DNA of 64,000 nt from Hallerella succinigenes (GTDB lineage Bacteria; Fibrobacterota; Fibrobacteria; Fibrobacterales; Fibrobacteraceae): positions 124,001-188,000 of the forward strand of contig NZ_PGEX01000001.1 of assembly GCF_002797675.1 (NCBI RefSeq). The letters are read 5' to 3'. Positions 27,363-49,236 of this stretch are shown piece after piece. Each line of letters opens with the position of its first letter. The first letter of the stretch is position 1. The position numbers and the translations under genes were made by a program. Below the pieces are notes generated by a model. It was not told where the DNA came from, made no database searches, and saw only the letters and a program-made list of their open reading frames with translations.

Positions 27363-27396
27363 TTGCAGCTGTAAGGTTCCAAACCCTTTAGCAAAG

Positions 27397-27425
27397 GCCT
27401 CTGAGAGTTAACTCAGAGGCTTTTT
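27397..27425 (+). terminator. Intrinsic terminator of pepA-guaA
   Basis: GCCTCTGAG (27397-27405) pairs perfectly with CTCAGAGGC (27412-27420) around AGTTAA, followed by TTTTT (27421-27425). It lies 35 bp after the guaA stop. Confidence 0.9.
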
Positions 27426-27550
27426 CGTATGTGCAACAAGGTTTGGAACTGGGTTCTTGCCTTTGCGTCAACCCACTAATACTTATCTGAACAGCATTTT
27501 CAATAGTAGCAATTTGGCTTAATCTTTTCTTTTGAAATGGCGTCGTAGCT

Positions 27551-28303
27551 TTATTTCTTCCACACGTGTTCGCGGTGGTATTGCAGATACGGCAAGTGAT
27601 GGGCGTCTATCCAGCGGAGGTGCATATCGGGATAGATGCCTACCCTTTTCAGATTAGATTCATTCAGCTGAGACGATAGCATTATATTACCGGCATCGTC
27701 GAAGGAAACTAAACCTTTGTCAAAGAGTGCATCCAGGTTGGCGCTTAGAAGGAATCCATTGTACACGTCGAGGCGTTCTTCGGCGGAGCTACAATCCTTC
27801 CACGGCTTCGCGTGACTGGCACGAAGAATTTCTGGAATTGTGCAGTTGGTAACTGCACAAGCGCCTTTCCAGTAGTTCATTAAGGCTTCACGGTACACAT
27901 CTTGGCCAACACGCTGCTTGACGGTTTCCTCGGTTTCTGTTGCCGGTAGGCCTCCGGCGACAATCTGACGCCAACGAGTATTATATATATCAATCGGTGT
28001 CGGCGGCAAGGCAATGAACAGTTCTTGCATACGGCGCAGTACACGACGAAGCGATTCGTATTCGCGTTCTTGAACAATAAATTCTTGATCGTTGACATAG
28101 AAGGCGCCATTGATGCGGAGTTCGGCTTCATTGAATGAGGCAGTAAAGGTCACGTCCATTTCGTGGGCACAACACTTGACTGAAGCACGTTCGTTATGCG
28201 AAGCGCTACCCAGAGTGACGGTATCCGGGCCATCGGATTCCACGATGCTCCAGCCGCTATCGGCTCCGGCCTTTTTTATCAGTTCCCGTTCAGTAAAGGT
28301 CAT
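27551..28303 (-). CDS. HNH endonuclease family protein
   Basis: This 250-aa protein has a C-terminal HNH_2-type nuclease domain (about 145-215). The signature reads CAVTNCTIPEILRASHAKPW, followed by NGFLLSANLDALFDKGLVSF, as in many standalone restriction-like HNH proteins. The N-terminal half (SASHNERASVKCCAHEMDVT) has no recognised domain and might bind DNA or sense a target. It lies 34 bp downstream of the split putative toxin gene on the same strand, so it may be the last gene of that cassette. It could act as a nuclease effector or restriction enzyme; this is inferred from context. Confidence 0.82.
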   Translation of the reverse strand: MTFTERELIKKAGADSGWSIVESDGPDTVTLGSASHNERASVKCCAHEMDVTFTASFNEAELRINGAFYVNDQEFIVQEREYESLRRVLRRMQELFIALPPTPIDIYNTRWRQIVAGGLPATETEETVKQRVGQDVYREALMNYWKGACAVTNCTIPEILRASHAKPWKDCSSAEERLDVYNGFLLSANLDALFDKGLVSFDDAGNIMLSSQLNESNLKRVGIYPDMHLRWIDAHHLPYLQYHREHVWKK

Positions 28304-28337: not shown

Positions 28338-28565
28338 TCAGACATATTGAATGTCTTCTGAAATACAATTTTCTGGAAATATTTTTCTTATTCTGTCGAA
28401 ACACCCGTTTCGTTGCCAGAAGCAAACCTGAATTTGGCGTTTTATATGATAAACGGCAGCATTTGCTTTATCAAAATGCAGTATTGGGTCTCCTCCTAAA
28501 TCCATTCCGCCTTCAGCTAATGTGCGAATAGAATCAAATTTTTTCGATGACGGATTACTTTTCAT
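28338..28565 (-). pseudogene. C-terminal part of split putative toxin
   Basis: This 75-aa reading frame (FDSIRTLAEGGMDLGGDPIL, then HIKRQIQVCFWQRNGCFDRI) overlaps the end of the upstream frame by 11 bp. Removing one base from the 8-nt A/T run at 28575-28582 would join the two into one protein of about 204 aa. Its pattern (a D-x-[VI]-R-x-[FL]-x-EG element and a terminal HIxIxVxN-like strand) is what I remember from the C-terminal half of a family of single-chain toxin-like proteins. It may be a frameshifted gene piece, a phase-variable gene, or a product of frameshifting. Confidence 0.55.
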
Positions 28566-28953
28566 CGAAGCTCGAAAAAAAATAAATTACCTCGCTTAAC
28601 AATTCTGGCTTACGGCTTTTACTCTTAACAAAAACTCCAATTATACGCTCAATCAACTCAATATGGTCAGGATTATCAACCAAATTAAGGCAACCTGCAT
28701 TATCACCATAGATATATTCAAGTGTGTAAATTGCGTAGGCTCCCCCGCAATGAGTTTTACCCCAATGGTGAGCATGACTTTTAAAACCTTCCCAAAAATA
28801 ATAACCATCCCCTAACCATGGTCGATAACCGATATGCCTTTTTTCATAATCAGTTATGGCGTTGGCTTGAGTAATCTGCTTGCTAAAAATAGGAACGCAC
28901 GATGTTACGTTCTGTGGAGGAGGCTCAGAGACGGTTTGATACAAGAGTGCCAT
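28555..28953 (-). CDS. N-terminal part of putative toxin (ADP-ribosyltransferase-like fold suspected)
   Basis: This is a 132-aa product containing GYRPWLGDGYYFWE and AYAIYTLEYIYGDNAGCLNL. A WLGxGxYFWE motif is typical of a family of small toxin-like proteins with a possible ADP-ribosyltransferase-like fold. The family link is from memory of sequence patterns and is uncertain. The ATG at 28953 overlaps the stop of the SecB-like gene (TGATG). The frame ends soon after an 8-T run (minus strand, 28575-28582), and the missing C-terminal half lies in the next frame. If it is a toxin, the cassette order is antitoxin, chaperone, toxin. Confidence 0.5.
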   Translation of the reverse strand: MALLYQTVSEPPPQNVTSCVPIFSKQITQANAITDYEKRHIGYRPWLGDGYYFWEGFKSHAHHWGKTHCGGAYAIYTLEYIYGDNAGCLNLVDNPDHIELIERIIGVFVKSKSRKPELLSEVIYFFSSFDEK

Positions 28954-29378
28954 CAATCAATCTCTGTTGTATTCTTCTTTACAAAATCCTTGATGCCAGA
29001 AAGGTTGGACAAAGGCAAAATAATGGCGCAACCAAAATTAGCCTGTTGAGAAACAAGACTTACGTAAGCGCGTAAATAAGGGTAAATGATGGCGATTCCA
29101 TTTGCATAAAAGAAGTCTGGAATGTCAGAAACTGTTTTTACAGATTCACCAAAAACATATTCACCACAACATTTGACTCTAAAAAATGGTTTTTCGACAC
29201 TTCCCGTAGATGCAGTAAATGTCACTTCCAATATTGCAGAATGCGAACTCTTGCTAAAAATACACTTCGGCCCAAAGTCCACCCTTATATTTTCGTTCGG
29301 AACAAATCCCTTTGATGTAAGGACAATATCATCGAACCAATAGCGTTTTAATGAAAAGGCAGGAGCTTGAGCTTCCAT
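28953..29378 (-). CDS. SecB-like chaperone
   Basis: This 141-aa protein has a SecB fold pattern: AILEVTFTASTGSVEKPFFR and a VKCCGEYVF strand in the middle, then FFYANGIAIIYPYLRAYVSL, corresponding to the FPYAREcI helix region of SecB, and ILPLSNLSG matching the LAPVNFDAL end. Standalone SecB-like proteins occur as the chaperone of toxin-antitoxin-chaperone (TAC) modules, where they fold and protect an unstable antitoxin. Here the gene is flanked by overlapping small genes on both sides (TAATG and TGATG), strong evidence for coupling. An export function unrelated to a TAC is the alternative. Confidence 0.8.
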   Translation of the reverse strand: MEAQAPAFSLKRYWFDDIVLTSKGFVPNENIRVDFGPKCIFSKSSHSAILEVTFTASTGSVEKPFFRVKCCGEYVFGESVKTVSDIPDFFYANGIAIIYPYLRAYVSLVSQQANFGCAIILPLSNLSGIKDFVKKNTTEID

Positions 29379-29629
29379 TAGGCAACCATCACATAGCAAG
29401 GAGCGTTGTAATCAGATTCAACAGATAAAGATACATTGGAATAAGCATTTGCCGCTAAAGACGACAAAAAACAACCATGCATTGTATCAAGAGATAAATC
29501 AAAACCAAACGATTCGCCATTATCTCTTTCTTTTGCCATAGAATCAACAATCGAGTCAAACTCGGTTTGGCTCATCGAATCGAGATATCTTTCAAAATTA
29601 TTCAAGAGTTCTTCGTATTCGGGCTTCAT
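29378..29629 (-). CDS. Small acidic protein, candidate TAC antitoxin
   Basis: The 83-aa product (MKPEYEELLNNFERYLDSMS...) is acidic and probably helical at the N-terminus. It ends in a hydrophobic tail, SVESDYNAPCYVMVA, that could serve as a chaperone-addiction segment. No family was recognised. The ATG at 29629 has GGAG six bases upstream, which decides it over two upstream in-frame ATGs. It is the first gene after a strong promoter and overlaps the SecB-like gene by one base. Assignment as antitoxin rests on position only. Confidence 0.45.
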   Translation of the reverse strand: MKPEYEELLNNFERYLDSMSQTEFDSIVDSMAKERDNGESFGFDLSLDTMHGCFLSSLAANAYSNVSLSVESDYNAPCYVMVA

Positions 29630-29702
29630 TTTAGCTCCAGTTGTTCCTTTTTTCATGACAAAAATACAAAACATTCGAAAATGCAGACGATTGTTCTTAA
29701 TC

Positions 29703-29731
29703 ATTATCGCCTAAAAAACTGCTTTTGTCAA
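29703..29731 (-). promoter_or_regulatory. Sigma-70-type promoter of the SecB-like cassette
   Basis: On the minus strand TTGACA (29726-29731) and GATAAT (29703-29708) are separated by exactly 17 bp. Transcription would start near 29696, giving a 5' leader of about 67 nt before the small acidic gene. This lets the cassette be expressed independently of the methyltransferase operon just upstream. Confidence 0.75.
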
Positions 29732-29761: not shown

Positions 29762-32700
29762 TTAATTCATCTTGTCCCAGGCTTCGAGGACGAGGCGTTG
29801 GGTGCGGTATTCGCCGTAGGTGGAGAGTTCGGCGTCGCGGAGGACGCGGAAGGTTTCGCTGGGATAATCGTCGCCCATGACGGTTTTGGGGTCGAGGATG
29901 TATTCGAGGTCACGGCGGGATAGGCCGTAGAGTCGGGCGAAGTAGGCATCGAGTTCGGCGCGAAGCTTGGCGCGGTGAGCATCTTCGAAGACGATGGGCG
30001 GAATGGAGGCCGGATCGAAGTTATTTGCGGCAAGGGTTTCGATGTCGGTGCCGGTTGGCAGATCCTTGTGCTGGGCAAGGATGTGCTTGCGGAGGTCCAC
30101 GCTAGCGTCGTTCCAGAGTGCACGTGCCCATTCGACGATGTCGGTAGCGGTATAGGTCAAGGCGAATACACGTGGAACGATAAAGTTTACGGCCATTTCC
30201 GTATAGGTAGACGGAGGCAACACAGGCGTTTGTTTCATATAAAAGTAACTGAAATTTGCGCCACCCAATTTATAACGAACAACAAAGTCGCACGGCAATG
30301 TAGACATATTTGCTAACAAACATGCTTGAAGACACGCTTCAAAGTTACATGCGCTAAAGAGCAATAACGAATCTCCAGTTCCACATAAAGGTAAAACGGT
30401 AGCAATCATCGTTCGGCTATCAACAGCACGAGCTATCTTCCTATATCCCATCAGATACTTGGGGCAGTATTCTTCGGCGGCAGCGAGCAAGTTCTGCACG
30501 ATATCGCCACTCTTGGCGGCATCGAGATAGACCTTCTGCAACTTGGCATCCGATTCCGTCATAGCAAGGCGCTGGCAGAGTTCACGCAGTTTCGGTCCAT
30601 CCTCTTTACGCAAAGCTGCAACTACAGAGGAATCAAGACTGGTAGCGCGGAGCACGGTTTCGGTATAGGGCACCCAGTATTCAGGCTGGGCCGCAAAATT
30701 AACGTCGGCCTTCTGTTCAGCGGAAACATCTTCAGGGTCCTTTTCGGCAAGGAACGTCGCCCAGCGGTGATCCATCTGGTGCATCATCTTGGCTTCGTAC
30801 AGCGGAAGCATAGGCTTGCCATCGGGACCATTGCCGGGAGCCTTCGCAAAGAAATTACTTGCAGATGTCATATTATACATCTGTTGGAAGGTGATATTCC
30901 ACGGATTACCGTTCTTTTCATCGGATTCACGGATAAATACGCCCGCCTTGCGGTATATCTTCTTTGCAAGTTCGGCATCTTCCTGGCTTCGGAACACGGG
31001 GCATGTGTGCGTATTCGGGTTAATCAAGTCAAAGTCTTCCGCCGTCATCGAGAAATGGCGTCGTTTGTCTTCGAGTTCGGGCACGTTCTTGAGGAAGAAC
31101 GCAAAGTCGCCCGGCGTGTTTCCGGCAGCAATCGTCAGCAAGCAGAACTTGAACATTCGATGCACATTGGGGAATATGCCTTCCTTGTTTTCGAAGTCAT
31201 AGAGACTACGCAACATTCCCTTGGAGGCGATTTCACCAAAGAATTCCTTGGTCGAGTCGTCAGTCGCAATTCCCGAGGGGCACACAAACCCAGCGGTTCC
31301 CCATCCATTGCGAAGACGCAAGTTAAGTTCAGCGAATTTTGAATATAGGTTTACCTTGCCATAAGAAGTCAAGGGGAAACGTCCACTATTCCCATAGTAA
31401 GTGTTTTCCGCTTCCATGGCATGTTTCCTAATCTCGTACAACGCATAGATTTGCGGACGTTCCTTCTTTAACTCATCTATGGCAATCTTGCGATCATTGC
31501 CGTTCAAAGCGGCAATTTCTGGCAACAAGTTCGCAAAGAACTCGATTTCCTTCAATTCTGACACATCCCACGGCGGATTACCCACCACGCAGTCAAAGCC
31601 ACCCTTAGCAAACACTTCTGGGAACTCCACCGGCCAATGGAAAAACGAGTATTCCTCGCTCAGCTTGGCTGCAAGTTCACGGATACCTTGCTTACTTTCA
31701 TCAAGGTCGTTCATCACGTCGTAAACATCTTCGCTAGTCGGAATTGACAACGGATCCGTCTTTCGAGCGAAAAATGCCGCCGTATAGAGATCGCAAGCGA
31801 GCTTATTCTTCACATATACACTGTCTTGCTGTAACTTCTCGTAAAGTTCGCGTTTCCGTTCTTCAGCCTTGATATCGTCATTTGGCAATGCTTCAATCTG
31901 CCTGGTCAGCGCCACCAGACGGTCGTTCGTAATGGGGTTCTTCTTTTCGAAGGCGCTAATCTGCCCCTTGCCACCGCGTTCCTTTTCGTTCGACTTCTTG
32001 AGCAAGGTGCATACGGCCTTGTCGTCGCCGGTAAGCGCCGTATATGCCGCCGATGGCATACCATTGTTCAAAACCTTGAGATCGAACACACCTACAAGCG
32101 AGTTCCCATGCTTGATATGGTGATTCAGGAACGAGAGCGGCTTGCCCGGTTCATAACCTTCGAGCCAAAGCGCGGTGCGAGCCAGTTCCACAGCCATTTC
32201 GTTCAAGTCTACACCGTAAATGCAGTTGGTAATCACATCGCGGAGCGCCTTACGGTAAGTTTCGGCGGTTGCACTCTCCCCCGTCTTTTCAAGGCGCTTT
32301 TCGCTAAGGACTTCAGCCAAGCGGCGGCTACCGGCAAGCAAAAAGTGCCCAGAACCGCTGCCAGCGTCAATCATACGGAAATCAAGGATGGCGCGTTCGT
32401 AATCCGGCGCACGGTTTTCCTTACGGGCAAGGTCTTCTTCGGCCTTGAGCTTCGCTTCGATGGCGGGTTCAAGAGCCGTCTTGATAAGGCTCTGAACAAG
32501 GCTAGCATCGGTATAATAACTACCGCTGAGCTTACGGGCGTTACCCTTGGTCGAACCGTCTTCGATAATGCCATCTTCGTCGCCCACGCCCACGAAACTG
32601 AAGGTCTTGGCCTGTAAATCCACATGCGGCACAAGTTCCAACAGACTCTCGTAAACGGAGCCGAACTCTTCGGTGCCCATATTACGATAATCGGTAAAGG

Positions 32701-33940
32701 TCTTCACCCCGTCGATATCGTTCCAGCGGAGCTGACGGATGGCCTTCATCAGGTGTTCATTGTCAAGTTCGCACGCATCCAGTAGCGGACACTGGTCAGC
32801 CTTGAACAGACCGCCAAGCGGCATCAAGTCCAGATTATCGTTGCCTTCCTGGAATGCCTTATAGACCACCTTCACGCCATGCCAGAGGTCGATATAGCGG
32901 TCGGTACGGATAGCCTTTTTGACGCGTTCAGCCAAGCGGTGGACGCTGTAGCCAGTCCAGTAAAGTCGATGGGCGTTACGGAATCTGGGTTCAAGTTCCG
33001 CGTCGGTGCCGGATTCGCTCGGATGGGCAAAAATCAGGCCGCGTTCTTCGATAGTGCTAAGGAAGAGGAATCGGTAAACTTCGCGGAGTAGCGCCTTGTA
33101 GAACACCTGAACGGTATAGGGAGCACCGTCCGGGCGCTTGCCTTCGGCAAGGGAGTTCAGAAGCACATTGTTGCCGGGGCCTTCGGTCTTCAGGAATCCG
33201 GCGCCAAGGTATAGGAGAGCGTTCGTCACGCCGGTACGCAGACCTTCACGCACACGCGTACCCTGCAATATGCCTTCGGTACGCCACTGTTCCCATACGT
33301 TCACGCGACTAGCCTGCATAAAGCACCAGAACGCCACAAAATCAGGATAACGGTCTTCCTTGAGGATGGATTCGATATTGAACGAGAGGTAGCTGGGACG
33401 GACAAGGCTTTCGCTGTCGCGGAGCAGGCGGAGTTCACGCCCATTGGTGACAATCGCCCAAGTGCAAGGTTCACTTGCGTTCAGGAACATCTGGGCTAGC
33501 GCATAGCCGCTCTTTTTGCGGCTAGTCACGCCTTCGATGGTGAAACGGGCATCGGCCTCGTCGAGCGAGAGGTCTGCTGGCACAATCACGAGCGGGACAC
33601 TCGGCGTCACGTAGGTCGTCACCGGGTATTTCACGCCGCCGATTACGGCTGGCTGTTCCTCGGTAATACCGGTATAGTCGAGAGCGGTACCGAAAAGCTG
33701 AAAGACGAAATTCTTGAGACTGTCAAACGAGGCATTCTTGGAGGCGTATTCGGCATAGAGCGCCTTCGCAATACTGAAGGCGCGGCTGGTCTGGTCGCTG
33801 AACTTGATTCCCGGAGGCAAGTTGTAGTCTTTTTCGGACTGGGCCGAGCACTTGCGCTGGGCAATCTGGGCGATACTGTCGCTTACAAAGAGGGAACCGA
33901 CCAAGTCAATTGTCGAAAATTCAATTTGGTTCTTTTTCAT
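29762..33940 (-). CDS. Large class I adenine-specific DNA methyltransferase (DrmMI/PglX-like)
   Basis: This 1392-aa protein has the SAM-binding motif I MIDAGSGSGHFLLAG (about 523-537) and the catalytic motif IV VVGNPPW (about 785-791) of N6-adenine methyltransferases of the Eco57I/PglX kind, with GVDLNEMAVELA between them. The long N-terminal part (1-480) and the C-terminal target-recognition-like half show no nuclease motif I can identify. Proteins of this size and architecture are the modification subunits of class 1 DISARM (DrmMI) and of BREX (PglX). The start overlaps the stop of the upstream ATPase gene (ATGA). Here it would mark host DNA for a helicase-based defence system; this role is inferred. 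Confidence 0.88.
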   Translation of the reverse strand: MKKNQIEFSTIDLVGSLFVSDSIAQIAQRKCSAQSEKDYNLPPGIKFSDQTSRAFSIAKALYAEYASKNASFDSLKNFVFQLFGTALDYTGITEEQPAVIGGVKYPVTTYVTPSVPLVIVPADLSLDEADARFTIEGVTSRKKSGYALAQMFLNASEPCTWAIVTNGRELRLLRDSESLVRPSYLSFNIESILKEDRYPDFVAFWCFMQASRVNVWEQWRTEGILQGTRVREGLRTGVTNALLYLGAGFLKTEGPGNNVLLNSLAEGKRPDGAPYTVQVFYKALLREVYRFLFLSTIEERGLIFAHPSESGTDAELEPRFRNAHRLYWTGYSVHRLAERVKKAIRTDRYIDLWHGVKVVYKAFQEGNDNLDLMPLGGLFKADQCPLLDACELDNEHLMKAIRQLRWNDIDGVKTFTDYRNMGTEEFGSVYESLLELVPHVDLQAKTFSFVGVGDEDGIIEDGSTKGNARKLSGSYYTDASLVQSLIKTALEPAIEAKLKAEEDLARKENRAPDYERAILDFRMIDAGSGSGHFLLAGSRRLAEVLSEKRLEKTGESATAETYRKALRDVITNCIYGVDLNEMAVELARTALWLEGYEPGKPLSFLNHHIKHGNSLVGVFDLKVLNNGMPSAAYTALTGDDKAVCTLLKKSNEKERGGKGQISAFEKKNPITNDRLVALTRQIEALPNDDIKAEERKRELYEKLQQDSVYVKNKLACDLYTAAFFARKTDPLSIPTSEDVYDVMNDLDESKQGIRELAAKLSEEYSFFHWPVEFPEVFAKGGFDCVVGNPPWDVSELKEIEFFANLLPEIAALNGNDRKIAIDELKKERPQIYALYEIRKHAMEAENTYYGNSGRFPLTSYGKVNLYSKFAELNLRLRNGWGTAGFVCPSGIATDDSTKEFFGEIASKGMLRSLYDFENKEGIFPNVHRMFKFCLLTIAAGNTPGDFAFFLKNVPELEDKRRHFSMTAEDFDLINPNTHTCPVFRSQEDAELAKKIYRKAGVFIRESDEKNGNPWNITFQQMYNMTSASNFFAKAPGNGPDGKPMLPLYEAKMMHQMDHRWATFLAEKDPEDVSAEQKADVNFAAQPEYWVPYTETVLRATSLDSSVVAALRKEDGPKLRELCQRLAMTESDAKLQKVYLDAAKSGDIVQNLLAAAEEYCPKYLMGYRKIARAVDSRTMIATVLPLCGTGDSLLLFSACNFEACLQACLLANMSTLPCDFVVRYKLGGANFSYFYMKQTPVLPPSTYTEMAVNFIVPRVFALTYTATDIVEWARALWNDASVDLRKHILAQHKDLPTGTDIETLAANNFDPASIPPIVFEDAHRAKLRAELDAYFARLYGLSRRDLEYILDPKTVMGDDYPSETFRVLRDAELSTYGEYRTQRLVLEAWDKMN

Positions 33941-35208
33941 CTGAGTATTTCCGAGTTCAGCAAAAATTCAATCAGGTTCACGTGAAGGATTCCGTCCGTA
34001 TCGCGGAATGTCTCGGGGATGTCGTTCTGGACGATGATTTTCGAGAAGAAATCCTTGGCGAGTTTTAGCGAATCGAGTTCCGCCTTGATTTTTTCGTCGG
34101 TGTTCATCTGCCAAGCCGACTGGATGTAGATACGCTTGTCGCCGTGGTTTACTACAAAATCGATTTCCTTTTGGACCCTTCCACCTTTATTCCTATCAAC
34201 AACGACACCCACATCTACCGAGTAGCCTCGCGAAACGAGTTCGTTATAGACAATGTTTTCCATCAAGTGACCGGAATCAATCTGACGGAAATTCAGTCGG
34301 GCATTGCGCAGCCCCACATCGGTAAAGTAATACTTGTTCGGGTAATCGAAGTAATGCTTGCCTTTGACATCGTAGCGTTTGGCCTCGCTTACGATAAAGG
34401 CATCTTCACAGTAATCGATATAGTCGCTTACTGTATTCACGCTCAATTTTTCGTTTTTGACGCTCTTGAGTGCATTCGTGATGTTGGTCGGGTTCGTAAG
34501 GGAACTTATCTGGGAACTGAGATTATCCAGTATGTTTCCAAGAATGTCGGAACGCGCCACATTATTGCGTTCCACGATATCCTTGATATAGACTTCATCG
34601 AAAAGCGATGCGAGATACTGCTTTTGCTGCTCCGAGTTTTTCAGTTTCAGCAAATAAGGCATTCCACCGTAAAGCATATAGGCGTCGAAATCGTCGCGGA
34701 CATGCCCGGCCCTGTACCCGTGAAATTCGGCAAAGCTCAGCGGATAAACGTGTATTTGCGATGCGCGGCCACGAAATTCTGTCGCGATGTCCTTGGAAAG
34801 CATCTTCGAGTTGCTGCCCGTGACATAGACATCCAGATTCTCATAGTCCTTGAGTTCGTTCAACAAATCGTAAACGGTGATTTCGTGCCCAGCATTGTCG
34901 GGATCCGGAACAGAATAGCAGAACTGGATTTCGTCGATAAACAGATAATACTTTTTACGGCGGTCCTTTATTTGCGATTCCACGTATTCGGCAAGGACTA
35001 CCGGGTTCCTGAACTTCGCGAACTTGCGTTTGTCCAGTTCAAGCATAATGATGTTCTCTGCCCTGGAGCCATTTTTCAACAGGTAGTCGTAAAAAAGATG
35101 GAACAGGAGCGTCGATTTTCCACAACGCCTGATACCTGTAATGACCTTGATCTGGCCATCCCACATGTAATCGACAATCTTTTTTAGATACCGTTCGCGA
35201 TCAATCAT
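33937..35208 (-). CDS. AAA-family ATPase with DUF4143-type C-terminus
   Basis: The 423-aa protein has a Walker A GIRRCGKST (about 25-33), Walker B YLFIDEIQ, and sensor VTGSNSKML. The C-terminal region is typical of AAA_14/DUF4143 proteins (YYFTDVGLRNARLNFRQ, LMENIVYNELVSRGYSVDVG, and the nuclease-like EIDFVV). The start at 35208 is fixed by GGAGG five bases upstream. It is embedded between the SNF2 and methyltransferase genes and overlaps the latter by four bases, so it appears to be part of that operon rather than a chance neighbour. Standalone members of this family are common and poorly understood. Confidence 0.85.
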   Translation of the reverse strand: MIDRERYLKKIVDYMWDGQIKVITGIRRCGKSTLLFHLFYDYLLKNGSRAENIIMLELDKRKFAKFRNPVVLAEYVESQIKDRRKKYYLFIDEIQFCYSVPDPDNAGHEITVYDLLNELKDYENLDVYVTGSNSKMLSKDIATEFRGRASQIHVYPLSFAEFHGYRAGHVRDDFDAYMLYGGMPYLLKLKNSEQQKQYLASLFDEVYIKDIVERNNVARSDILGNILDNLSSQISSLTNPTNITNALKSVKNEKLSVNTVSDYIDYCEDAFIVSEAKRYDVKGKHYFDYPNKYYFTDVGLRNARLNFRQIDSGHLMENIVYNELVSRGYSVDVGVVVDRNKGGRVQKEIDFVVNHGDKRIYIQSAWQMNTDEKIKAELDSLKLAKDFFSKIIVQNDIPETFRDTDGILHVNLIEFLLNSEILR

Positions 35209-35306
35209 TAACGCCTCCATCCAAGCGAAGTCTTGACTGAAAAGTTACGCCAAAAATGGCAAAAGAATTCAGGCATAATATAATAAAAAAGACTCGCCAC
35301 AGGTCA

Positions 35307-38186
35307 TTATAGGTCGCCTCCGGGCACAAGCACATAACATCCAATCAAGTCCGCCGGTAGGCACGGTTCCACGGTCACGGTTCCGTAACGCTGGGCACTG
35401 GCAGAACGGACACGCAGATGGTCTTCGGAAAGCACGGTCCCGCGTCTTTGGGCAAGGTTCGCAAAAAGCCGGGTGTTATTCCGGTAAAAGTCAAGCGCAC
35501 GCGCCACATTGTCACGAATAACGGGTTCGCCAAGGTTTCCGGTTGGACTTTCTTCGAGCAATGCGTTTACGTCGCCGTTTTCAAGGATTCGAGGTTCACC
35601 AACCAAGTTGACAGCCACAGCCACGGCCTCCTCGGCCATCATCAGCTTGGGCGTATTCTTGCCAGTATTGCGCAACTGGTAACGAACTCGGAGCAAGTAA
35701 ATGGCGGTCAATTCCTGGACCGATTCGGATTCGTAGGCGCCCGAACGAGCCGCAATGTCGTTCTTGCTAGAAAGTGCGCCTTCCAACAGGTAGCTGGATA
35801 GACTTTCCACGATGGGGTTCGTGCGGTGTATAAAGGCATAGCCTTGCGGAGGCGGATACGCAAACGATATCTTCAGCGGCTTTTTCAGGTCCTTCTTGGG
35901 GAAAGAGGCCTGTAACTGGCTACGGATTTCGGGCGGCAAACTCTTGACATCGAGGGTAAAGGCATGCTCCGAAGCGCGTTCCTTCGCCGCGTTCAGGCGC
36001 GTCGTCGCCACATCGAAGAACTTCTGCACATCTTCGGAGTCGCCAAGGGCATCCTTCGTCTTGTCCCATTCCGGCATGATTTCTTCGGGTTTCAAAGACT
36101 GCTGGCTAAAGATGGTGCGGTTACGGCGTTCCTTGTCGATGGCGCGTTGCCAGTTCTTTTCCACATTGTTCACATCAGTAGCGAACTCTTCGCCAAAATC
36201 GAGTTCCAGTTGGCCGTTCTTGTCGGTAGCCACGTATTTCTTGAGCAGAGCCGCTTTCACGAGCGCCACGCGAATGTTGCCGTTGTCTTCGGGCACCGGG
36301 ACAGAAATACCAAGGTCTTCCTTGATTTTTTCGGCCTTGCGAAGGATGACATTGAAGATCAGGCCGTCCACCGGATTGTCGGCACCGTAAAGCATGGTGC
36401 ACCAGACATTCTTGCACTGCTGACCGAAACGGTCCACACGGCCTTCGCGCTGTTCATGGCGAGTCGGGTTCCAAGCCAAGTCGTAATGAACGACGGCATT
36501 GAAGTAGTCCTGAAGGTTGATACCTTCGGACAGGCAGTCCGTCGCCACGAGAATCGGGGAATCGGATTCCGCCAACTCGCGAACCTGTTCTTCGCGTTCC
36601 TCATTGGTAAGTTCACCGGTTACGCACGCTACGCTACATTTGGGGAACTCCGCTTTGAGCTGGTCTGCCACATAATGAGCCGTCGCGATATACTTGCAGA
36701 AGATAACCGGACGGTAAGTATCGCCCGTCTTCTTTACCATCTTGAGCATATCGTCAAGATGCTTGGCAAGGCACTTGAATTTAGGATCTTCCAGCTTGCC
36801 ACTCAGGGATTCGGCCTTCGCTATCAGGCGCTTTACAGCCTCGGAGTCTTCAAGCACCGGGCTTACAAACTGGTCATTCGCTTCGGTATCGTCTTCGCCG
36901 TCGTAGGTTTCGGTGATGTAGCCTTCCAAGAGAGCCGCATTTTCGGCAGTATCTTCGGCCAGCTTAGCGTTCTCCTCGATACTGTTCAAACGCGTTGTCA
37001 GGGCACTCTTGGCGGCAAGCGGACTGGACGAAATACAACGCAACAGAGCAAGCGTCGCGTACCACATCATCCGACCCTTGAATCCGTCGGTTATTTCGGC
37101 CCTGTTCGCAATATCCACACAGTATTCGCGGACCTCGTTAAAGAAGTCGCCCCATTCACCCGTCAGCTTGTAGGTGATTTCCTTGGTCTTGCGGTCAGGG
37201 AAAGCGGCCTTGCCGGGATAGTTCATCACGTCAATTCGGCGACGCTGCACCAGATGGCGTCCCAAGTCTTCGCGGAGCTTCATCTTTTCGCTGGAGGAGT
37301 GGTCCACGGACAGGTCGTCAAGTCCGGCATAGTCCTTTTTCAATAGCGAAAGAAGGTTGTTGAAGGCGTGTTCGTCGCCGGAATGCGGCGTTGCCGTCAA
37401 AAGGATGATATGGCGTTCCTCGTTCGCAGCCAAGTCCTGCAACAGGGAGAATCGCAACTGACGGCCACCGCCCACGCAACAGGTATGAGCTTCATCGACC
37501 ACCAACATGGCATCGTCGATATGGGTCTTGAACCAGTCGCGGTGAGTGTCGCTCTTGATATAGTCCAGCGAAATGACCGCCGCCGGGTAGTGTTCAAAGA
37601 ACTGTTCCGTCTTGCTGACCTCCTTTTCGAGGTTAGCAATAGAACGCGCCGTAATACCGACAGCGTCGATATTGAAGTGTTCCTTGAGTTCCGTCACCCA
37701 CTGGGTTACCAGATGAGGCGGGCAAAGAACGACAAACTTGGAGATTTCACCGCGTTCGTAGAGTTCTTTCACGATAAGTCCAGCTTCAATCGTCTTACCG
37801 ATACCTACGTCATCGGCAATCAGCAAACGGACTACCGGCATTTTTAGCGCCATCAGGAGCGGAACCAGCTGGTAGCTTCGCGGTTCAAAGGCCAAATGGC
37901 CAAAACTGCGGAACGGCCCGGCAGCATTCGTGAGCTTTAGCTTCAGGGCATCACGGAGCAGCTTGGCGGATTCAAAACGCCCGATATCGGTCGTGTTCGG
38001 AGCCGGGAATACGGCACTTTCAAGTTTCGTATACTCAATGGATGGCATAATAACCTGAGTTTCATCGTCGGTCCCCCCAAGCGGACGGAGCTTGATGCAA
38101 TCCTTCAAGTCGCAGGGTTCAACGACCCATTCGCGTCCACGCACTTTGACAAGAGAGCCTAAAGGGTAAGTCACAGTATCAGCCAT
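35307..38186 (-). CDS. SNF2-family helicase (DrmD-like)
   Basis: This 959-aa superfamily 2 ATPase has the helicase motifs IADDVGIGKTIEAGL (Walker A, about 123-137), VVDEAHTC (DEAH), LLTATPHSG (III) and REGRVDRFGQ (VI), with the RapA/DrmD-like order and an N-terminal DNA-binding-like strand domain (SLVKVRGREWVVEPC). The long C-terminal region (about 640-959) is unassigned. DrmD is the SNF2 helicase of class 1 DISARM. The ATG at 38186 has AAGGA seven bases before it; a TTG at 38204 is less likely. The gap to the upstream helicase stop is 25 bp. Confidence 0.87.
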   Translation of the reverse strand: MADTVTYPLGSLVKVRGREWVVEPCDLKDCIKLRPLGGTDDETQVIMPSIEYTKLESAVFPAPNTTDIGRFESAKLLRDALKLKLTNAAGPFRSFGHLAFEPRSYQLVPLLMALKMPVVRLLIADDVGIGKTIEAGLIVKELYERGEISKFVVLCPPHLVTQWVTELKEHFNIDAVGITARSIANLEKEVSKTEQFFEHYPAAVISLDYIKSDTHRDWFKTHIDDAMLVVDEAHTCCVGGGRQLRFSLLQDLAANEERHIILLTATPHSGDEHAFNNLLSLLKKDYAGLDDLSVDHSSSEKMKLREDLGRHLVQRRRIDVMNYPGKAAFPDRKTKEITYKLTGEWGDFFNEVREYCVDIANRAEITDGFKGRMMWYATLALLRCISSSPLAAKSALTTRLNSIEENAKLAEDTAENAALLEGYITETYDGEDDTEANDQFVSPVLEDSEAVKRLIAKAESLSGKLEDPKFKCLAKHLDDMLKMVKKTGDTYRPVIFCKYIATAHYVADQLKAEFPKCSVACVTGELTNEEREEQVRELAESDSPILVATDCLSEGINLQDYFNAVVHYDLAWNPTRHEQREGRVDRFGQQCKNVWCTMLYGADNPVDGLIFNVILRKAEKIKEDLGISVPVPEDNGNIRVALVKAALLKKYVATDKNGQLELDFGEEFATDVNNVEKNWQRAIDKERRNRTIFSQQSLKPEEIMPEWDKTKDALGDSEDVQKFFDVATTRLNAAKERASEHAFTLDVKSLPPEIRSQLQASFPKKDLKKPLKISFAYPPPQGYAFIHRTNPIVESLSSYLLEGALSSKNDIAARSGAYESESVQELTAIYLLRVRYQLRNTGKNTPKLMMAEEAVAVAVNLVGEPRILENGDVNALLEESPTGNLGEPVIRDNVARALDFYRNNTRLFANLAQRRGTVLSEDHLRVRSASAQRYGTVTVEPCLPADLIGCYVLVPGGDL

Positions 38187-38211
38187 CTTAAATCCTTCAA
38201 TCAATCAAAAG

Positions 38212-41200
38212 TTAGAGTTCGTCAGTATCGCAACCAGGGAACTTGTTCCTATTCTGCATTATAGCACGTTCCCATTCTTCTGGGGTATCGCCGATAACGA
38301 TAAAGCGATATCCCTTAGCATCAAGATACTTTCGCAAGGAATCCTCCGGTTCTTCTGCCAAGAGCACCAAACGCGAAGCCTTCCACATAGCCAAAACCGT
38401 ATAGGCGCCGTTATGGATAGCCTTGTTGTAGGCATCCGGTTTTACGCAGAAAACCGAGTCCAGAATGTCATCGAGCGACTTGGCGTGTTCATCTTCGCGG
38501 ACGGTTGCTTCTGCCTGAGTTTCGACCTTTTCAGCCGTAGCGTTAGCAAGTTCGACCAGAATCTTGAGCGAGTCTTCGTCATGACGGTCAATGACGCTAT
38601 GCTGGGGCTGGTTATAGTAGCTCAATAGGCATCTGTAGCACCCTGCCACGCAGCGAACTTCAAGCGGTTTTGTCTGTTCGAGATCGTTCAGTTCATCAAC
38701 AGACTTTGGCGAAGGTCCACGACTGGGGTCTTCAGCCGTACTATTCCACGAGAAGTGCATAATCGAAAGTGCACGACGAGCAATTCGGCCAATCGCCTCG
38801 CCATTGCGCAACAGTTCTGTCAGAACACCGGCTCCGCCTTCGGAAGCCTCGTAGAAAAGCAGACTTGTACATTCCCTTTCGTTCGGCATCTGCTTTACGG
38901 AAAGTTCGGATTGTTCTATCTGGAACTCTTCTTCGATGGCACGCTGTAATGCGGAGGCAACCGTCGCCATCGTCTTCTGGGAATAAGGTTCCGTATCCAA
39001 GAGGCCACGCTTGGGTTCATAGACCAGGATATTCTTCGTGTCTTCGACATAAGGCACAATACGTTGCGGCTGGACCTTGGAATTTTCCTTGTCGTCCTGA
39101 TCCGGTGCATCCGTATCGCCGGGATCGGATTCCCAGCATCCCGTCATCGGATTGATTTCAAATCCCTTCACGGACATGTTCTTGCGCTTACGCCAACCGA
39201 GATTCAACATCCACAACTTGGCATTCGGACCATAAGTCAGTTCACCGACACAATCGCCGTCCAGCATCATCTTTGACTGGTTATAGCAAAGAATACCCTT
39301 GTCGCTGGCAAAGCGATAAACCGTCTGGAGGTCATACCCCTTGCGAAGGCGTTCTTCCTCGTTTGCCGAAATACGCGTACTCGGCTTCGTTTCGACAGTT
39401 TCAATCTTGTAGAGCGAATCTATTGTCGTTCCGGCGGTCAACGGCTGGCCGCACTTTTCACACCGTTCGGCGTTCACGCTCACGTGTCCGTAACCGCAAC
39501 GGTCGCAAATCACCATTGTCTGGGTAGCGAGTTTGTCCGTTGCCGTCGCCTGGCCGTTACCGGAGTTCAGCTTTGCCTTAAACACCTTGTAGCGGCGACC
39601 TTCGTGGTAAATGATGCTCTGGGGACCAAATTCGGAAATGGCAAGGAATCGCGGACGGCTCACCATAGAACCGGCGTCATCCTTCTTGCCGGCGAGATTG
39701 CCCCTGACCGACGGAATCCACGCCATCAGCGGAAGGCGCGGGAAATCATACCCCGGAAGGAATCCTTGGCTTGCCAAGTAACGGTATGGGTAGAAATCGT
39801 TGTTCTTGTTGGCAGATTTACCAATCAAAACATTCAGCTGCTGGCTGGCATCGAAGTAGCGCCTCTTGGCGCGTTCTCGCTCAATGGCCGTTATGCTGAG
39901 ACTCTGGACGATCTTATCGGAATCGGCCATCTGCTTCTTGATAGACCGCAATAGCGTGCGCCAACTATCAAAAGCAGCGTTAAAATCCTTGGCGACATCG
40001 TCAATGACCCTATCGACGTAGTCATCCTGGATCCACGGCTGTTTCTGTTCGTCTTCGGACAGAGCCTTGCGAACATCGGCCAAGACGTTCTTGGCCTCCT
40101 TTTTCGCAGCCTGTTTTACGCCGTCGTCGTTAATTCGTTCTAACAGGTCTTTTCGAATTTCAAGGCGTAAGCCGGATTCCGGGTCCATCACGTTATCATA
40201 GATGCTCTGGCCCAGACCGTAATCGAGTTCCTGAAGCCAAACAGCGTGAATATGGCTCGTTATCAAGTCCTTATTCGTAATGTCAAGCGTCGGAGCATTC
40301 ACGATACCAGACACCATATCGGTTCGCTTCTCAAAGAACCACTGGTCGTGGGGGCTCATAGAGGAGCTATAGGTAATCACCAGAGCCGGTTGACCGGATC
40401 GACCCGCACGTCCACTACGCTGGGCATAGTTGCTCGCCGTGGGCGGCACGTTGCGCATATACACCGTATTCAGGCTCGATATATCGACGCCAAGCTCCAT
40501 CGTAGGAGAACAGTAGAGAACCGGCAGGCGCTTCAGCTCAATCCCCGGATTTTCCTCTTTCCATTCCTCGATATCTTTTTTGGTAAATCTAAACTGATGT
40601 TCCAGTTTCTTGCGGTCTTGCGCATCCACCTGGGCCGTATGTTCGTGTGCGCTGTAATCAAAGACATAGCAGCTCTGATTGTCGATTGCAGACTGTACAA
40701 GAGCATCCTTGACGTTCCTATAGACTGCTCCGAAATATTCATTGTCTCGGATACCGGTGTTAGAAACATCCGGGTTTCGACCAGAATGCCATTCCATAGC
40801 ATTGGCGTGCAACTGCCAGCCATCGGGTGTACGATGAACAATATCGGCGGAGTTCGCTATTTCAAATGCGGTTACGACAACTCCGCGAATCAGGTCTGCA
40901 CTCCCCTTCGCCTTGATTTTAGCTTCAGCCGGAGTTCCGGACCATATACTAGAATTCTTGATTGCCCTAGAAATCTGGGAGTTCTGAGCCAAGGAAACCG
41001 TCGTATAGTCGCGCCTACCTACGCCACGCGTCTGCTTACGGCCAGAATCGTCAACGTAATTGAACCCATCGGGCTTCTCGTTATAAGCAAATCCCCACTT
41101 TTCAAGCAAGTCAAGATAGGACGATTCCAGAACCTTCTGCTGTTCGCTCCTGTTCAAATAGAACGAATCTACGCAGAGCTGAGCTTTCATTATCTGGAAC

Positions 41201-43545
41201 AAAATATGATAAAATTCGAGTCTCTTGGCCGGAGTCAAGCAAGCCAATTCATCACAGTTTGCAAATCGGTTGTCGTCGCCACAAAGTTCACGCAATCCCT
41301 TGTACTCAATGTGGAGCATTCCCAACATTTCGAGCGGCGGATTGTTGTTGTACCAGCCAGAGGCCAAATCCTTCATCAGACGGTAACCGAGAATAAACTT
41401 AGCCTCGTTCTTGACATTTTCGAGTGCATTAGGCTGGTCTATCTTCGGATTGACCATGTACTCCTTGAGCACATCCTTATTGCGCGAATCAAAGCCCAGA
41501 GTTGCGAATACGGCACCGGAAAGCTGTTCGTACGGCAATACGCCGCCATGCTGCTCCATCGCACCAAGCAATGCGGCACGGAGCGTCACAGTGTAGACGA
41601 AATCGTTAAAATGCCCGGCCTGTAACGCTGCATCCTGACGGTTGTCGGTAAAACCGAGCATCTTGCGGACATCGTTATCACCAATATCCTTGCCATAGGG
41701 ATTGTCACGGAACAGCTGGTTAAGTACGGCTAGCGTAAGTACAGTGGTTGCCGATGAACGGCCTTCACCGCTCAAGCCGATAAGCTTGTTTCGGTCAGAA
41801 CTGAACTGTCTGTATTCGTGACCGCAACAAGGGCAGAAACGGACCTTGCCAGGAATATACCAAAACTCGGTATTATTCGACTTCTTTTCTATATCGCGAG
41901 TACCGTTTGCCTGAACATACATCGGAACCGGCTGGAACGGAGCGTAGTTTTTGCGGACTCTCGGATAGCCGTCCTTGTCCAGCTCCCACCAGCTTTCCGG
42001 CAGATCATCGGTTGTCTGATACTTGAAGCTAGACTTTTTCGGAACAAGGAAGCCATTGAAACCGCTATTATCGTCCATTGGGACCTCGCCGATATCGCGA
42101 GGTTCGAACACCTTGCGTTCATCATTGAAACGGACCGGAAAGAACTCTTCGCCACATTCACGACAGAAATGGGCATTGAAAAGTCTTACTCCATCACAGC
42201 CAGGTGCATAGACCTGAGCATCCAAGGTTACACGGCGCTTTCCCTCAGATTCGAGGGTACACAGTACGCTTCCGGGGCCACTGATGAACTGGTGCAGTTT
42301 GAAGGCAAACGGTTTACGGCCATTGGGGCTTGTCAGGGCATGGGCCGCCATCAGGTAATCCTGCAAGGCACCCAAGGCGCTATCCAAAGACACATCCGCA
42401 TCCTTGGCAAGTTTTTCAGCCGCCATACGAAGCGTAATAGGCTTCGCTCTTTTGGCCTTGCCTACAGCCGGTTTGTCAATACCGAGCGTCAGTTCCACCC
42501 AGACCGACAACGGATCATTTCGAAACTCATCTAAGGACGTAAACGGAGCTACTCCCTTTGCGACACGCGCACTCAGAAGCGGCCTTACCTTATCCAAGTT
42601 AAGATGTTCATCGGTCGCTTGAGCCAGCGTTTCGGTAATGACGTTCGACGGCGGGATTTCGGCACCGAACAGTTTAGACGCCACCGATGCCACGGCTCGG
42701 TTCTGGTCATCCTCGGTTCCGGTGTTATCCATAGTCGCCGATGTTCCGATGCTGATTAGATTATCAGCCTTTGTCTCACGACGTAGGCGGCGTACAAGCA
42801 AGGCTACATCGGCACCTTGTCGTCCACGGTAAGTATGCAATTCATCCAGTACAAGGAACTGCAAGCCGTCGCAATGCTCCATCACGGCCTTATCGACCTC
42901 GGAACCACGAGTCAGAATCAGTTCCATCATCATGTAGTTCGTGAGCAATATGTCGGGTGGATTGCTCGCTATGCGCTTTCGTTCGGCATCCAAATCTTGA
43001 CCAGTATAACGATCCACCGTGAATGCGCCGGTATTGCCAAGAAACTTGTTGATTTCCTCCATCTGGCTATTGGCCAAGGCGTTCATCGGATAGATGATAA
43101 TGGCGCGTGTACGCGGGGTCTTGTCCAGTTCCTTCGCGCGCAAAATGGCATCTACGATAGGGATGAAAAAGGATAGGCTCTTACCGGAACCTGTACCCGT
43201 CGTGACAACAAAGCTTTTATGTTCCTTGGCAAGCGATATGGCGTGAGTCTGGTGCTGGTATAGGGACATCGGCCTGCCACCCATACCTTCGTTATCCTTG
43301 CCCACCTTGAATATATCACGGCATTTTGGAGACAATACGCCTTCGTCACAAAGTTGGTCAATCGTGGCGCTAGTCTGATAGTTCGGATTGATTTGAATCA
43401 GAGGATCTGGCCAGTAGCGGCCTCCGGCGTACTCAGCATCGACGACACGTTTGATGTCGTCCGCCGAAATCTTCGTGAAACTGCGAGAAAAGCGGCTATA
43501 CTCGTCGATAACCGCATCACGATAACTGAATACGTTCTGTGCCAT
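38212..43545 (-). CDS. Giant DEAD/DEAH helicase with DUF1998 domain (DruE-like or fused DrmA-DrmB-like)
   Basis: This is a 1777-aa protein. Helicase core: Walker A TGTGSGKS (about 116-123), DELH box LVLDELHTYRGRQGADVALL (about 232-251), TSATMD, and motif VI QRSGRAGRSG. Zinc-type cysteine pairs occur at FCRECGEEF, FCPCCGHEYR and ICDRCGYG...RCEKCGQPL. A DUF1998 (MZB-like) region near the C-terminus has LLFYEASEGGAGVLTELL and CVAGCYRCLLSYYNQPQH (about 1632-1649). The combination matches DruE of Druantia and, in sum, DrmA plus DrmB of DISARM. It is the first gene of the operon. Upstream AAGGA is 14 bases away, so initiation may be weak. Confidence 0.88.
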   Translation of the reverse strand: MAQNVFSYRDAVIDEYSRFSRSFTKISADDIKRVVDAEYAGGRYWPDPLIQINPNYQTSATIDQLCDEGVLSPKCRDIFKVGKDNEGMGGRPMSLYQHQTHAISLAKEHKSFVVTTGTGSGKSLSFFIPIVDAILRAKELDKTPRTRAIIIYPMNALANSQMEEINKFLGNTGAFTVDRYTGQDLDAERKRIASNPPDILLTNYMMMELILTRGSEVDKAVMEHCDGLQFLVLDELHTYRGRQGADVALLVRRLRRETKADNLISIGTSATMDNTGTEDDQNRAVASVASKLFGAEIPPSNVITETLAQATDEHLNLDKVRPLLSARVAKGVAPFTSLDEFRNDPLSVWVELTLGIDKPAVGKAKRAKPITLRMAAEKLAKDADVSLDSALGALQDYLMAAHALTSPNGRKPFAFKLHQFISGPGSVLCTLESEGKRRVTLDAQVYAPGCDGVRLFNAHFCRECGEEFFPVRFNDERKVFEPRDIGEVPMDDNSGFNGFLVPKKSSFKYQTTDDLPESWWELDKDGYPRVRKNYAPFQPVPMYVQANGTRDIEKKSNNTEFWYIPGKVRFCPCCGHEYRQFSSDRNKLIGLSGEGRSSATTVLTLAVLNQLFRDNPYGKDIGDNDVRKMLGFTDNRQDAALQAGHFNDFVYTVTLRAALLGAMEQHGGVLPYEQLSGAVFATLGFDSRNKDVLKEYMVNPKIDQPNALENVKNEAKFILGYRLMKDLASGWYNNNPPLEMLGMLHIEYKGLRELCGDDNRFANCDELACLTPAKRLEFYHILFQIMKAQLCVDSFYLNRSEQQKVLESSYLDLLEKWGFAYNEKPDGFNYVDDSGRKQTRGVGRRDYTTVSLAQNSQISRAIKNSSIWSGTPAEAKIKAKGSADLIRGVVVTAFEIANSADIVHRTPDGWQLHANAMEWHSGRNPDVSNTGIRDNEYFGAVYRNVKDALVQSAIDNQSCYVFDYSAHEHTAQVDAQDRKKLEHQFRFTKKDIEEWKEENPGIELKRLPVLYCSPTMELGVDISSLNTVYMRNVPPTASNYAQRSGRAGRSGQPALVITYSSSMSPHDQWFFEKRTDMVSGIVNAPTLDITNKDLITSHIHAVWLQELDYGLGQSIYDNVMDPESGLRLEIRKDLLERINDDGVKQAAKKEAKNVLADVRKALSEDEQKQPWIQDDYVDRVIDDVAKDFNAAFDSWRTLLRSIKKQMADSDKIVQSLSITAIERERAKRRYFDASQQLNVLIGKSANKNNDFYPYRYLASQGFLPGYDFPRLPLMAWIPSVRGNLAGKKDDAGSMVSRPRFLAISEFGPQSIIYHEGRRYKVFKAKLNSGNGQATATDKLATQTMVICDRCGYGHVSVNAERCEKCGQPLTAGTTIDSLYKIETVETKPSTRISANEEERLRKGYDLQTVYRFASDKGILCYNQSKMMLDGDCVGELTYGPNAKLWMLNLGWRKRKNMSVKGFEINPMTGCWESDPGDTDAPDQDDKENSKVQPQRIVPYVEDTKNILVYEPKRGLLDTEPYSQKTMATVASALQRAIEEEFQIEQSELSVKQMPNERECTSLLFYEASEGGAGVLTELLRNGEAIGRIARRALSIMHFSWNSTAEDPSRGPSPKSVDELNDLEQTKPLEVRCVAGCYRCLLSYYNQPQHSVIDRHDEDSLKILVELANATAEKVETQAEATVREDEHAKSLDDILDSVFCVKPDAYNKAIHNGAYTVLAMWKASRLVLLAEEPEDSLRKYLDAKGYRFIVIGDTPEEWERAIMQNRNKFPGCDTDEL

Positions 43546-43920: not shown

Positions 43921-43996
43921 CAAACACAGGGCTGGCTTTTATTTTTACCCAAAGTAGCAAAAATATTGGAAATTACAGACAAATTGTCATATAGGG
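43921..43996. repeat. 76-bp direct repeat, copy 1
   Basis: This copy matches 48161-48236 at 73 of 76 positions. It contains a terminator-like GGGCTGGCTTTTATTTTT and then, on the minus strand, the last codons of the DUF4143 ATPase gene (PYMTICL, stop). It lies just after the FISUMP pseudogene. Confidence 0.92.
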
Positions 43997-45331
43997 CGGA
44001 ATGCAGATAGTTCCGTTTTCTTTTATGAAGTAGTTCTTAGGATGAATGATATACGATTTTCCGATACGCTTCTTGTAGATTTTTTTGAAATCGGTTAAAG
44101 ACGATGTGGTATAATTCTTTGACGATTTTACCTCGATGGGGATGACTTTTCCGCTTGCGGAATCGCTCAGCAAAAAGTCAATTTCCATATCGTTTCGGTG
44201 CAGTTCTTTGTTGTATCGGGTGTAAAAGTAAAGCCGGTGCCCGTTTGCGGTAAGCATTTGCGCAATGGCGTTTTCATAGAGCATACCCTTGTTTATTGAA
44301 AGCTTGTCGTTCATGATTTGCTTGTACAGCGAATCTCTTGCAATCGCATTTTCACTGAAGGCATGCGAGAACAGAATCCCCGTGTCGCCCATGTAGCATT
44401 TGATGGCGGAATCGTCGCCGTTCAGCCCCAAGCCCACATTGGGGTCGGAACATTTGAGGCAATTGTTGGTAATCATGGAGTTCGAAAGCCACATGAAGGT
44501 ATTCTCGTAGGTGTTTTCTGTGTTGATGCCGGATTCAATTCTGGAGAGACTTACGCGTTTCTCGTGCTTGGAGAGGAATGCGGGAATTTGCAGGAATGTG
44601 GAAAGGACCTTTGACTTGTATGCACCCTTGATTTTTTGGATATCCTTCTTGTAGAGGGCGATAATGCTGCGTTTGCGCTTGTCGCTGTATTCAAAGCTGA
44701 ACGTGTGTTCCAGAAATTCGACGATGGACTGGGGCATCCCACCGATAAGCATGTATTGCTTGAATAGTTGCATGGCGTCGTTGTGCAGACTGCGCTCAAG
44801 GGCTTCTCCTTTGCCGAAACATTCCCGGATGTAGTCGCAGATGGAGGGCTTTCCGAGTGCCTCACAGAACTCCTCGAAGTCCATCGGATACATTTGGATA
44901 GATGTTTCTTCCGATGGAATGGTGATGTCCTTGACGTTTTCGTTGATGGAAATGAGTGAACCTGTCTCGATGTAGTCGAAGCGCCCGTCCTTGACAAGTT
45001 TCTTGATGCTTTGTCGGGCCTTTGGGAATTTTTGAACCTCGTCGAAAATGATTACGGAGTCACGGGGATGGAGCGTGATACTGTATGTGTAAGAGAGCGT
45101 GGTAAAGAAACTGTTGAGGTCGCTCATCTTGTCGAACGCTTTCTTGACGGAAGCCTCGCAGTCGTTGAAGTCGATAAGGATATACGACTTGTATTCGTGC
45201 TGGGCGAATGTTTCTACGATGGTGCTCTTGCCAATTCGTCGGGCCCCTTCGATGAGGAGGGCTTCGCTGCCCTGGGATTCGGCTTTCCATTGCAACAGCT
45301 TCTGGTAGATTTTGCGTTTAAATTTAATCAT
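43973..45331 (-). CDS. AAA-family ATPase with DUF4143-type C-terminus (second copy type)
   Basis: The 452-aa protein has the Walker A GARRIGKST (about 29-37), Walker B SVIIFDEVQKFPKARQ, and sensor ETGSLISINENVKD. The C-terminus is typical of the family: YMGDTGILFSHAF, KGMLYENAIAQMLTANG, and the PD-(D/E)xK-like EIDFLL...IPIEVKSSK. GGAGG lies seven bases before the ATG. It is only distantly similar to the ATPase in the defence operon. It is convergent with the FISUMP pseudogene, and its 3' end lies within the 76-bp repeat. Function unknown; such genes spread widely in Bacteroidetes- and Fibrobacter-like genomes. Confidence 0.85.
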   Translation of the reverse strand: MIKFKRKIYQKLLQWKAESQGSEALLIEGARRIGKSTIVETFAQHEYKSYILIDFNDCEASVKKAFDKMSDLNSFFTTLSYTYSITLHPRDSVIIFDEVQKFPKARQSIKKLVKDGRFDYIETGSLISINENVKDITIPSEETSIQMYPMDFEEFCEALGKPSICDYIRECFGKGEALERSLHNDAMQLFKQYMLIGGMPQSIVEFLEHTFSFEYSDKRKRSIIALYKKDIQKIKGAYKSKVLSTFLQIPAFLSKHEKRVSLSRIESGINTENTYENTFMWLSNSMITNNCLKCSDPNVGLGLNGDDSAIKCYMGDTGILFSHAFSENAIARDSLYKQIMNDKLSINKGMLYENAIAQMLTANGHRLYFYTRYNKELHRNDMEIDFLLSDSASGKVIPIEVKSSKNYTTSSLTDFKKIYKKRIGKSYIIHPKNYFIKENGTICIPPYMTICL

Positions 45332-48847: not shown

Positions 48848-48850
48848 TTT

Positions 48851-49236
48851 TGAATGCATACAAAAAAAAAAAAAATGATAATGTTTTTTATTTACATTTA
48901 GAGATGTGAAATATATAATGGATGAAGATTCCGACTAGATGTTGCCTATTATAAAATTCTTGTGAATGTGTATTGTAAGGGTTTTGGGCATTTTCCATTA
49001 GTGCTCCTTTCCAGTATGGGGCTTTTTTGCGATTGCGTGGATTTTGGTAGCGAAGGGGTTCCGTCATTGGCAAGAAAACTGGGACGTTCTGTCAAAAGGT
49101 TGCACAGGAAAACCCCCTCCGTAAACCCGTTCGTGTTGTTCCTGGTCATTTTTATGCTTTCTGTATTGGGAATAGTGACTTTTGGTAACCTCTAAAAATT
49201 AACCTCAAAAAAAAGCACTTTACATACAAATTCTGT
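48851..49236. other. Intergenic stretch, no gene supported
   Basis: This AT-rich stretch begins with a run of A residues. Short open frames exist on both strands (for example 48962-49195 on the plus strand, whose end is hydrophobic), but none has a recognisable family, a good ribosome-binding site or a coding-like pattern. It lies between the IS element and decayed restriction-modification genes and probably contains further eroded sequence. Confidence 0.5.

Follow-up and report, generated by a model that had tools for sequence, protein, structure and literature searches.

Gene content and class of the operon

Four closely spaced ORFs occupy positions 29762-43545 of the window (the whole 64,000-nucleotide stretch of Hallerella succinigenes DNA analysed here), all on the minus strand (1777, 965/959, 427 and 1392 aa) and in agreement with an earlier note on this DNA. 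The operon opens with a YprA-like SF2 helicase of 1777 aa (38212..43545, minus strand), which matches the Pfam models DEAD, Helicase_C and MZB (the latter at 32 bits vs. a Pfam cut-off of 24.2, with the Cys motifs of the DUF1998/MZB zinc domain present), has DruE (DruE1, 317 bits) as its top PADLOC match, and retains Walker A, DEXH and motif VI in its translation. It is followed by a BrxHII/RapA-like (DrmD-like) SNF2 helicase (35307..38204, minus strand; 965 aa from a TTG start, or 959 aa from the ATG at 38186) with Pfam SNF2-rel_dom and Helicase_C matches and intact Walker A and DEAH motifs; by an ATPase with Pfam AAA_14 and DUF4143 domains (33937..35220, minus strand; 427 aa; PADLOC PDC-S01); and by a PglX/DrmMI-like adenine methyltransferase (29762..33940, minus strand; 1392 aa; Pfam Eco57I, PADLOC DrmMI at 205 bits) with intact GSGSGH and NPPW motifs. 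The tight spacing was confirmed as 25 bp between the first two genes (taking the ATG start of the SNF2 helicase), 86 bp between the SNF2 helicase and the DUF4143 ATPase genes (98 bp if counted from the second Met of the latter), and a 4-bp overlap between the ATPase and methyltransferase genes. The family names given earlier (DruE-, DrmD- and DrmMI-like, AAA_14 with DUF4143) were upheld by PADLOC, NCBIfam and Pfam profile searches, as were the absence of DrmC (no PLD nuclease among the scanned genes beside the operon) and of BREX pglZ (none among the scanned neighbours, with 0 PF08665 matches in the whole genome). The SNF2 helicase also matched, over its full length and at 602 bits, a PADLOC model labelled DpdE (PDLC02853); an actual DpdE identity was rejected on the basis of the NCBIfam DpdE equivalog (191 vs. 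a cut-off of 500). Given this full-length fit to the BrxHII-like helicase of ARMADA, loci of this system annotated with PADLOC may be mistaken for parts of Dpd.

As set out in the main text of a preprint by Bell et al. 2025 (bioRxiv, September 2025; PMC12458937), ARMADA is a defence family (a 'missing link') connecting DISARM and Druantia, in which Type I is characterized by the order YprA-like helicase, BrxHII-like SNF2 helicase, PglX-like methyltransferase and by a predicted active C-terminal Vsr nuclease in the helicase; phage defence was demonstrated there for Type II (in E. coli) only, with all of its enzymes being needed. By gene content and order against this published definition, the operon is of the ARMADA Type I kind: a single-chain YprA homolog stands first, followed by the BrxHII-like helicase and the PglX-like methyltransferase, with one extra gene inserted, and the zinc motifs as well as a C-terminal Vsr-like domain are shared. 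It differs from Type I as published by the deletion of the Vsr catalytic loop from an otherwise retained domain (an active Vsr nuclease being a typical but not a strictly defining trait), by a conserved downstream HNH gene, and by the DUF4143 insert before the methyltransferase. The three protein families are also common to Type II, which is distinguished by the order BrxHII-PglX-YprA and a GajB-like ArmD with a RelE domain; neither feature is found in the operon, and no GajB-RelE (ArmD) gene was detected among the scanned neighbours.

The earlier view of the locus as intermediate between DISARM and Druantia holds insofar as this is a defence-type operon with kinship to DISARM class 1 and to Druantia and membership in neither, while its proposed status as a distinct architecture, i.e., a new class, is superseded by the prior description of the cassette in the preprint main text (PMC12458937). 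Assignment to DISARM or Druantia would draw on the PADLOC matches to DruE, DrmD and DrmMI, and indeed DISARM class 1 shares a DrmD-like helicase and a DrmMI-like methyltransferase, and Druantia shares DruE, the best PADLOC match of the large helicase. However, DISARM class 1 has separate DrmA, DrmB and DrmC, whereas the equivalents of DrmA and DrmB are contained here in one 1777-aa chain, no separate DrmA or DrmB genes and no DrmC were found among the scanned genes, and both the DrmD (343 bits vs. 610) and the DrmA matches fall under their NCBIfam cut-offs. In place of the Druantia partners stand the BrxHII-like helicase and methyltransferase genes, and the DruE-like helicase is accompanied by neither DruH nor any other Druantia partner among the scanned genes. 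Placement in DISARM, in Druantia or in a wholly new class is, thus, close to untenable.

Distribution and variable parts of the cassette

A set of ~85 loci, combining the best 80 relatives of the window helicase from 84,980 species with Fibrobacterota genomes, was used for comparative analysis. Relatives of the helicase at ~40-97% identity stand first in the same operon in other genomes, and the three-gene core order is kept in most of these loci, across many phyla, wherever the contig allows. The expectation that the four-gene order would recur in other genomes was, therefore, borne out for the three-gene core, far beyond chance, and failed for the position of the DUF4143 gene. Helicase copies of 95-97% identity occur in three genomes of another Fibrobacteraceae genus amid different neighbours; hence, the operon is horizontally mobile. 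A gap of 188 bp separates the end of the HNH gene from the 3' end of guaA (GMP synthase; region 25527-28303), a kind of gene known to serve islands for integration. At 48281-48859 there is an IS200-type transposase, and no integrase was seen. A deep branch (L016, L017 and L112) carries the same three-gene cassette with a YprA protein that lacks the DUF1998 cysteines and has an intact Vsr-like motif.

The position between the SNF2 helicase and the methyltransferase is an accessory slot of varying gene content: elsewhere it is empty or filled by Schlafen-AlbA, DUF1016/YhcG nuclease or DUF6169 genes (Schlafen-AlbA and DUF1016 nuclease genes together in L016), and among the ~85 loci a DUF4143 ATPase occupies it in only four near-identical Fibrobacteraceae copies from two genera. 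The reading of this ATPase as an obligate subunit of a four-gene system, which the earlier note had taken as the defining fourth gene, draws on its 4-bp overlap with the methyltransferase gene, its recurrence at this position in four genomes from two genera, and a dN/dS of ~0.04-0.06, indicative of purifying selection. This reading appears very unlikely, as the gene is missing from the other loci, including the operon of a Fibrobacter MAG (L037) with a 70%-identical helicase, where a DUF6169 gene occupies the slot, and as the genome contains 22 DUF4143 genes. Moreover, dS among the Fibrobacteraceae copies is 0.09-0.10 for the DUF4143 ATPase vs. 0.33-0.42 for YprA, 0.19-0.49 for BrxH and 0.48-0.79 for the methyltransferase, so that the ATPase gene must have arrived or spread after the operon copies diverged. 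It is a recent, lineage-specific accessory insert and no component of the system. A second, different DUF4143 ATPase gene (43973-45331, minus strand) lies just upstream of the operon and is not found there in the other Fibrobacteraceae copies.

All operon genes are under purifying selection. Between the Fibrobacter copies, residues 1-600 of the methyltransferase are 97-100% identical, and parts of its C-terminal half are down to 38%. With its variable target-recognition part, the enzyme resembles restriction-modification enzymes that swap target recognition, and this analogy suggests that methylation by the operon serves to mark self.

Degenerate Vsr domain and distal HNH gene

The C-terminal domain of the YprA-like helicase (38215..38490, minus strand; delineated by alignment and AlphaFold model), overlooked in the earlier reading of this protein, is a Vsr-like nuclease domain without its catalytic loop. 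Where intact relatives read VFIDGPHH...D, the aligned window sequence reads RLVLLAEEPEDSL. The motif (A/P)DF.Y...DGPHH, by which Vsr status was called, occurs in roughly one third of the 86 collected helicases; the remaining two thirds or so, including that of the window, have lost the first Asp together with the DG..H loop and the residues after it (these loci having been picked by likeness to the window helicase, the shares of the clades do not represent ARMADA Type I in general). On a helicase tree built by FastTree leaving out this domain, most of the degeneration maps to a single clade of 52, with L042 and L104 in addition. The AlphaFold model still matches Vsr-type endonucleases by VIA-align (3r3p and 3hrl at Z 7.5 each, 1cw0 at Z 5.4), and a Foldseek search alone yielded nothing significant for the domain; these Z scores being modest, the argument for a dead Vsr rests on the sequence alignment. 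Thus, the Vsr nuclease of the window helicase and of one large clade has lost its catalytic loop and is predicted to be dead, and its fold appears, with moderate confidence, to be retained despite the deletion.

An additional gene missed by the earlier note lies beyond the methyltransferase and encodes a full-length HNH nuclease of 250 aa (27551..28303, minus strand; ~255 aa in relatives), which matches an HMM of the downstream HNH genes at E 1.7e-70. This gene is conserved with the cassette in loci of the same clade, so that the limits 29762-43545, correct for the four ORFs, are too narrow for the operon. Its product is modelled by AlphaFold with a pLDDT of 92, and residues H164, N182, D191 and D195 are near-invariant. 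By structure comparison, the HNH domain is closest to those of VcaM4I (an EVE-HNH endonuclease, PDB 6yex; Z 17.7, 36% identity) and TagI (Z 10.5). Unlike the N-terminal EVE domain of VcaM4I, the N-terminal domain of the window protein resembles the MotA DNA-binding domain or secretion chaperones, at Z 8.7-7.8 that are suggestive only.

With truncated loci extended and no ORF overlap filter applied (this filter hid HNH genes in G+C-rich loci), the HNH gene was found downstream in 54 of the 63 loci with enough flank, including 46/48 Vsr-degenerate and 8/15 Vsr-intact ones (L028 and L092 being counted as carriers); the two Vsr-degenerate loci without a full HNH gene are L021 and L024. An initial count had put HNH with degenerate Vsr only, which proved to be an artefact of truncated flanks. 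As the extended loci show HNH beside intact-Vsr helicases too, a plain one-for-one replacement of the dead Vsr by HNH was rejected. Every HNH carrier falls within one well-supported clade of 63, and all 7 intact-Vsr loci without HNH fall outside it, a distribution which on this tree points to a single gain of HNH with the loss of Vsr coming afterwards.

The association was also assessed in an unbiased sample of 300 genomes from the order of the Achromobacter locus, where the helicase was found in 13, the HNH gene in 13 (12 full-length and one interrupted), and both in 11; hence, HNH is present in 11/13 helicase-positive vs. 2/287 helicase-negative genomes (Fisher p 1.6e-16). In all nine sampled genomes with both genes on one contig, HNH is downstream on the same strand. 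Among 168 Fibrobacterota genomes, full-length HNH matches were found in five, four of them with the operon and the fifth on a short contig with the methyltransferase end just upstream of HNH. The distance correlation with YprA (Spearman) was 0.94 for BrxH, 0.83 for HNH, 0.73 for the methyltransferase and 0.42 for an SMC gene, with shared ancestry handled by permutation only.

A distance of up to ~15 kb, occupied by cargo, may separate the HNH gene from the methyltransferase gene before it, so that co-transcription is not assured. This cargo often includes the aforementioned SMC gene, an SMC/Lamassu LmuB-like ATPase of ~660 aa (in 27 loci, e.g., 23182-25161 in L029), which was considered as a core part and, given its poor co-evolution with YprA, treated as cargo. 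In the window, this second accessory slot holds a PD-T4-9 toxin-antitoxin-chaperone cargo (28555..29704, minus strand; PADLOC PD-T4-9_A and PD-T4-9_C), related to a previously described system of this name (PMC9519451) and in our reading CmdTAC-like (PMC11618068). Its toxin-like ORF ends early (133 aa vs. 205 aa in L110), and the window copy is, thus, probably inactive.

Proposed mechanism and its alternatives

Overall, we consider this locus to be an ARMADA Type I anti-phage operon from a branch where a separate protein has probably taken over DNA cutting from the helicase. The methyltransferase would mark the DNA of the host, with its variable C-terminal half determining the target sequence, and the SNF2 translocase and YprA helicase would load on and engage unmarked or replicating phage DNA. 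DruE, a relative of YprA, is a 3'-tail-preferring helicase (PMC13192584). The HNH protein, as the candidate nuclease effector, may then provide the cut made by Vsr in other branches, with the dead Vsr domain potentially retained for docking or DNA binding. In its extended form, for which we see roughly even chances, this model describes the large ARMADA Type I branch as a four-protein system with a trans-encoded HNH effector, in which, after the HNH gain, the active site of Vsr disappeared on at least two occasions and the domain took on a role in docking or DNA binding.

The two sampled genomes that have HNH without the helicase count against the effector model, as do the Vsr-degenerate loci L021 and L024 and the cargo-filled distance between HNH and the methyltransferase. 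BREX is thought to work without cutting DNA, and by a similar mode the helicases and methyltransferase of the operon could stall phage replication, HNH being merely a defence-island companion. The dead Vsr and the variable cargo separating HNH from the core genes are in line with this scheme, as is the fact that modification-dependent HNH enzymes such as VcaM4I act alone (PMC7897488). Nevertheless, a non-cutting mode seems rather unlikely given that HNH in the unbiased sample is nearly exclusive to the cassette (downstream and on the same strand if on one contig) and agrees with the phylogeny of the helicase more closely than the methyltransferase does, the SMC cargo gene trailing far behind. 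The similarity of the HNH domain to VcaM4I and TagI, both modification-dependent, raises another option, namely an independent type IV-like enzyme directed against modified-DNA phages that escape ARMADA, the two being complementary neighbours rather than one machine, with the separate N-terminal domain as a possible sensor. This domain, however, best resembles MotA or chaperones and is no EVE domain, and the tight co-evolution of HNH with YprA makes such independence distinctly unlikely.

The HNH-effector model would correct, for this branch, how ARMADA Type I has been portrayed in print, with a predicted active cis Vsr nuclease, adding the HNH gene as a missing candidate effector and providing a concrete case of a helicase-nuclease defence system gaining a second nuclease before the loss of the first. 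Relative to the main text of the preprint (PMC12458937), the loss of the Vsr loop in one large clade and the conserved distal HNH gene are new; that text names HNH only in the title of a reference, and the HNH gene as a part of ARMADA Type I is, as far as that text goes, apparently unreported. In practical terms, if the three-gene cassette from this branch were cloned alone, the nuclease would probably be left behind. Two distinct ARMADA Type I loci may also coexist in one genome, as in G185 (L134 and L155, on contigs C117 and C133), with an HNH gene in each.
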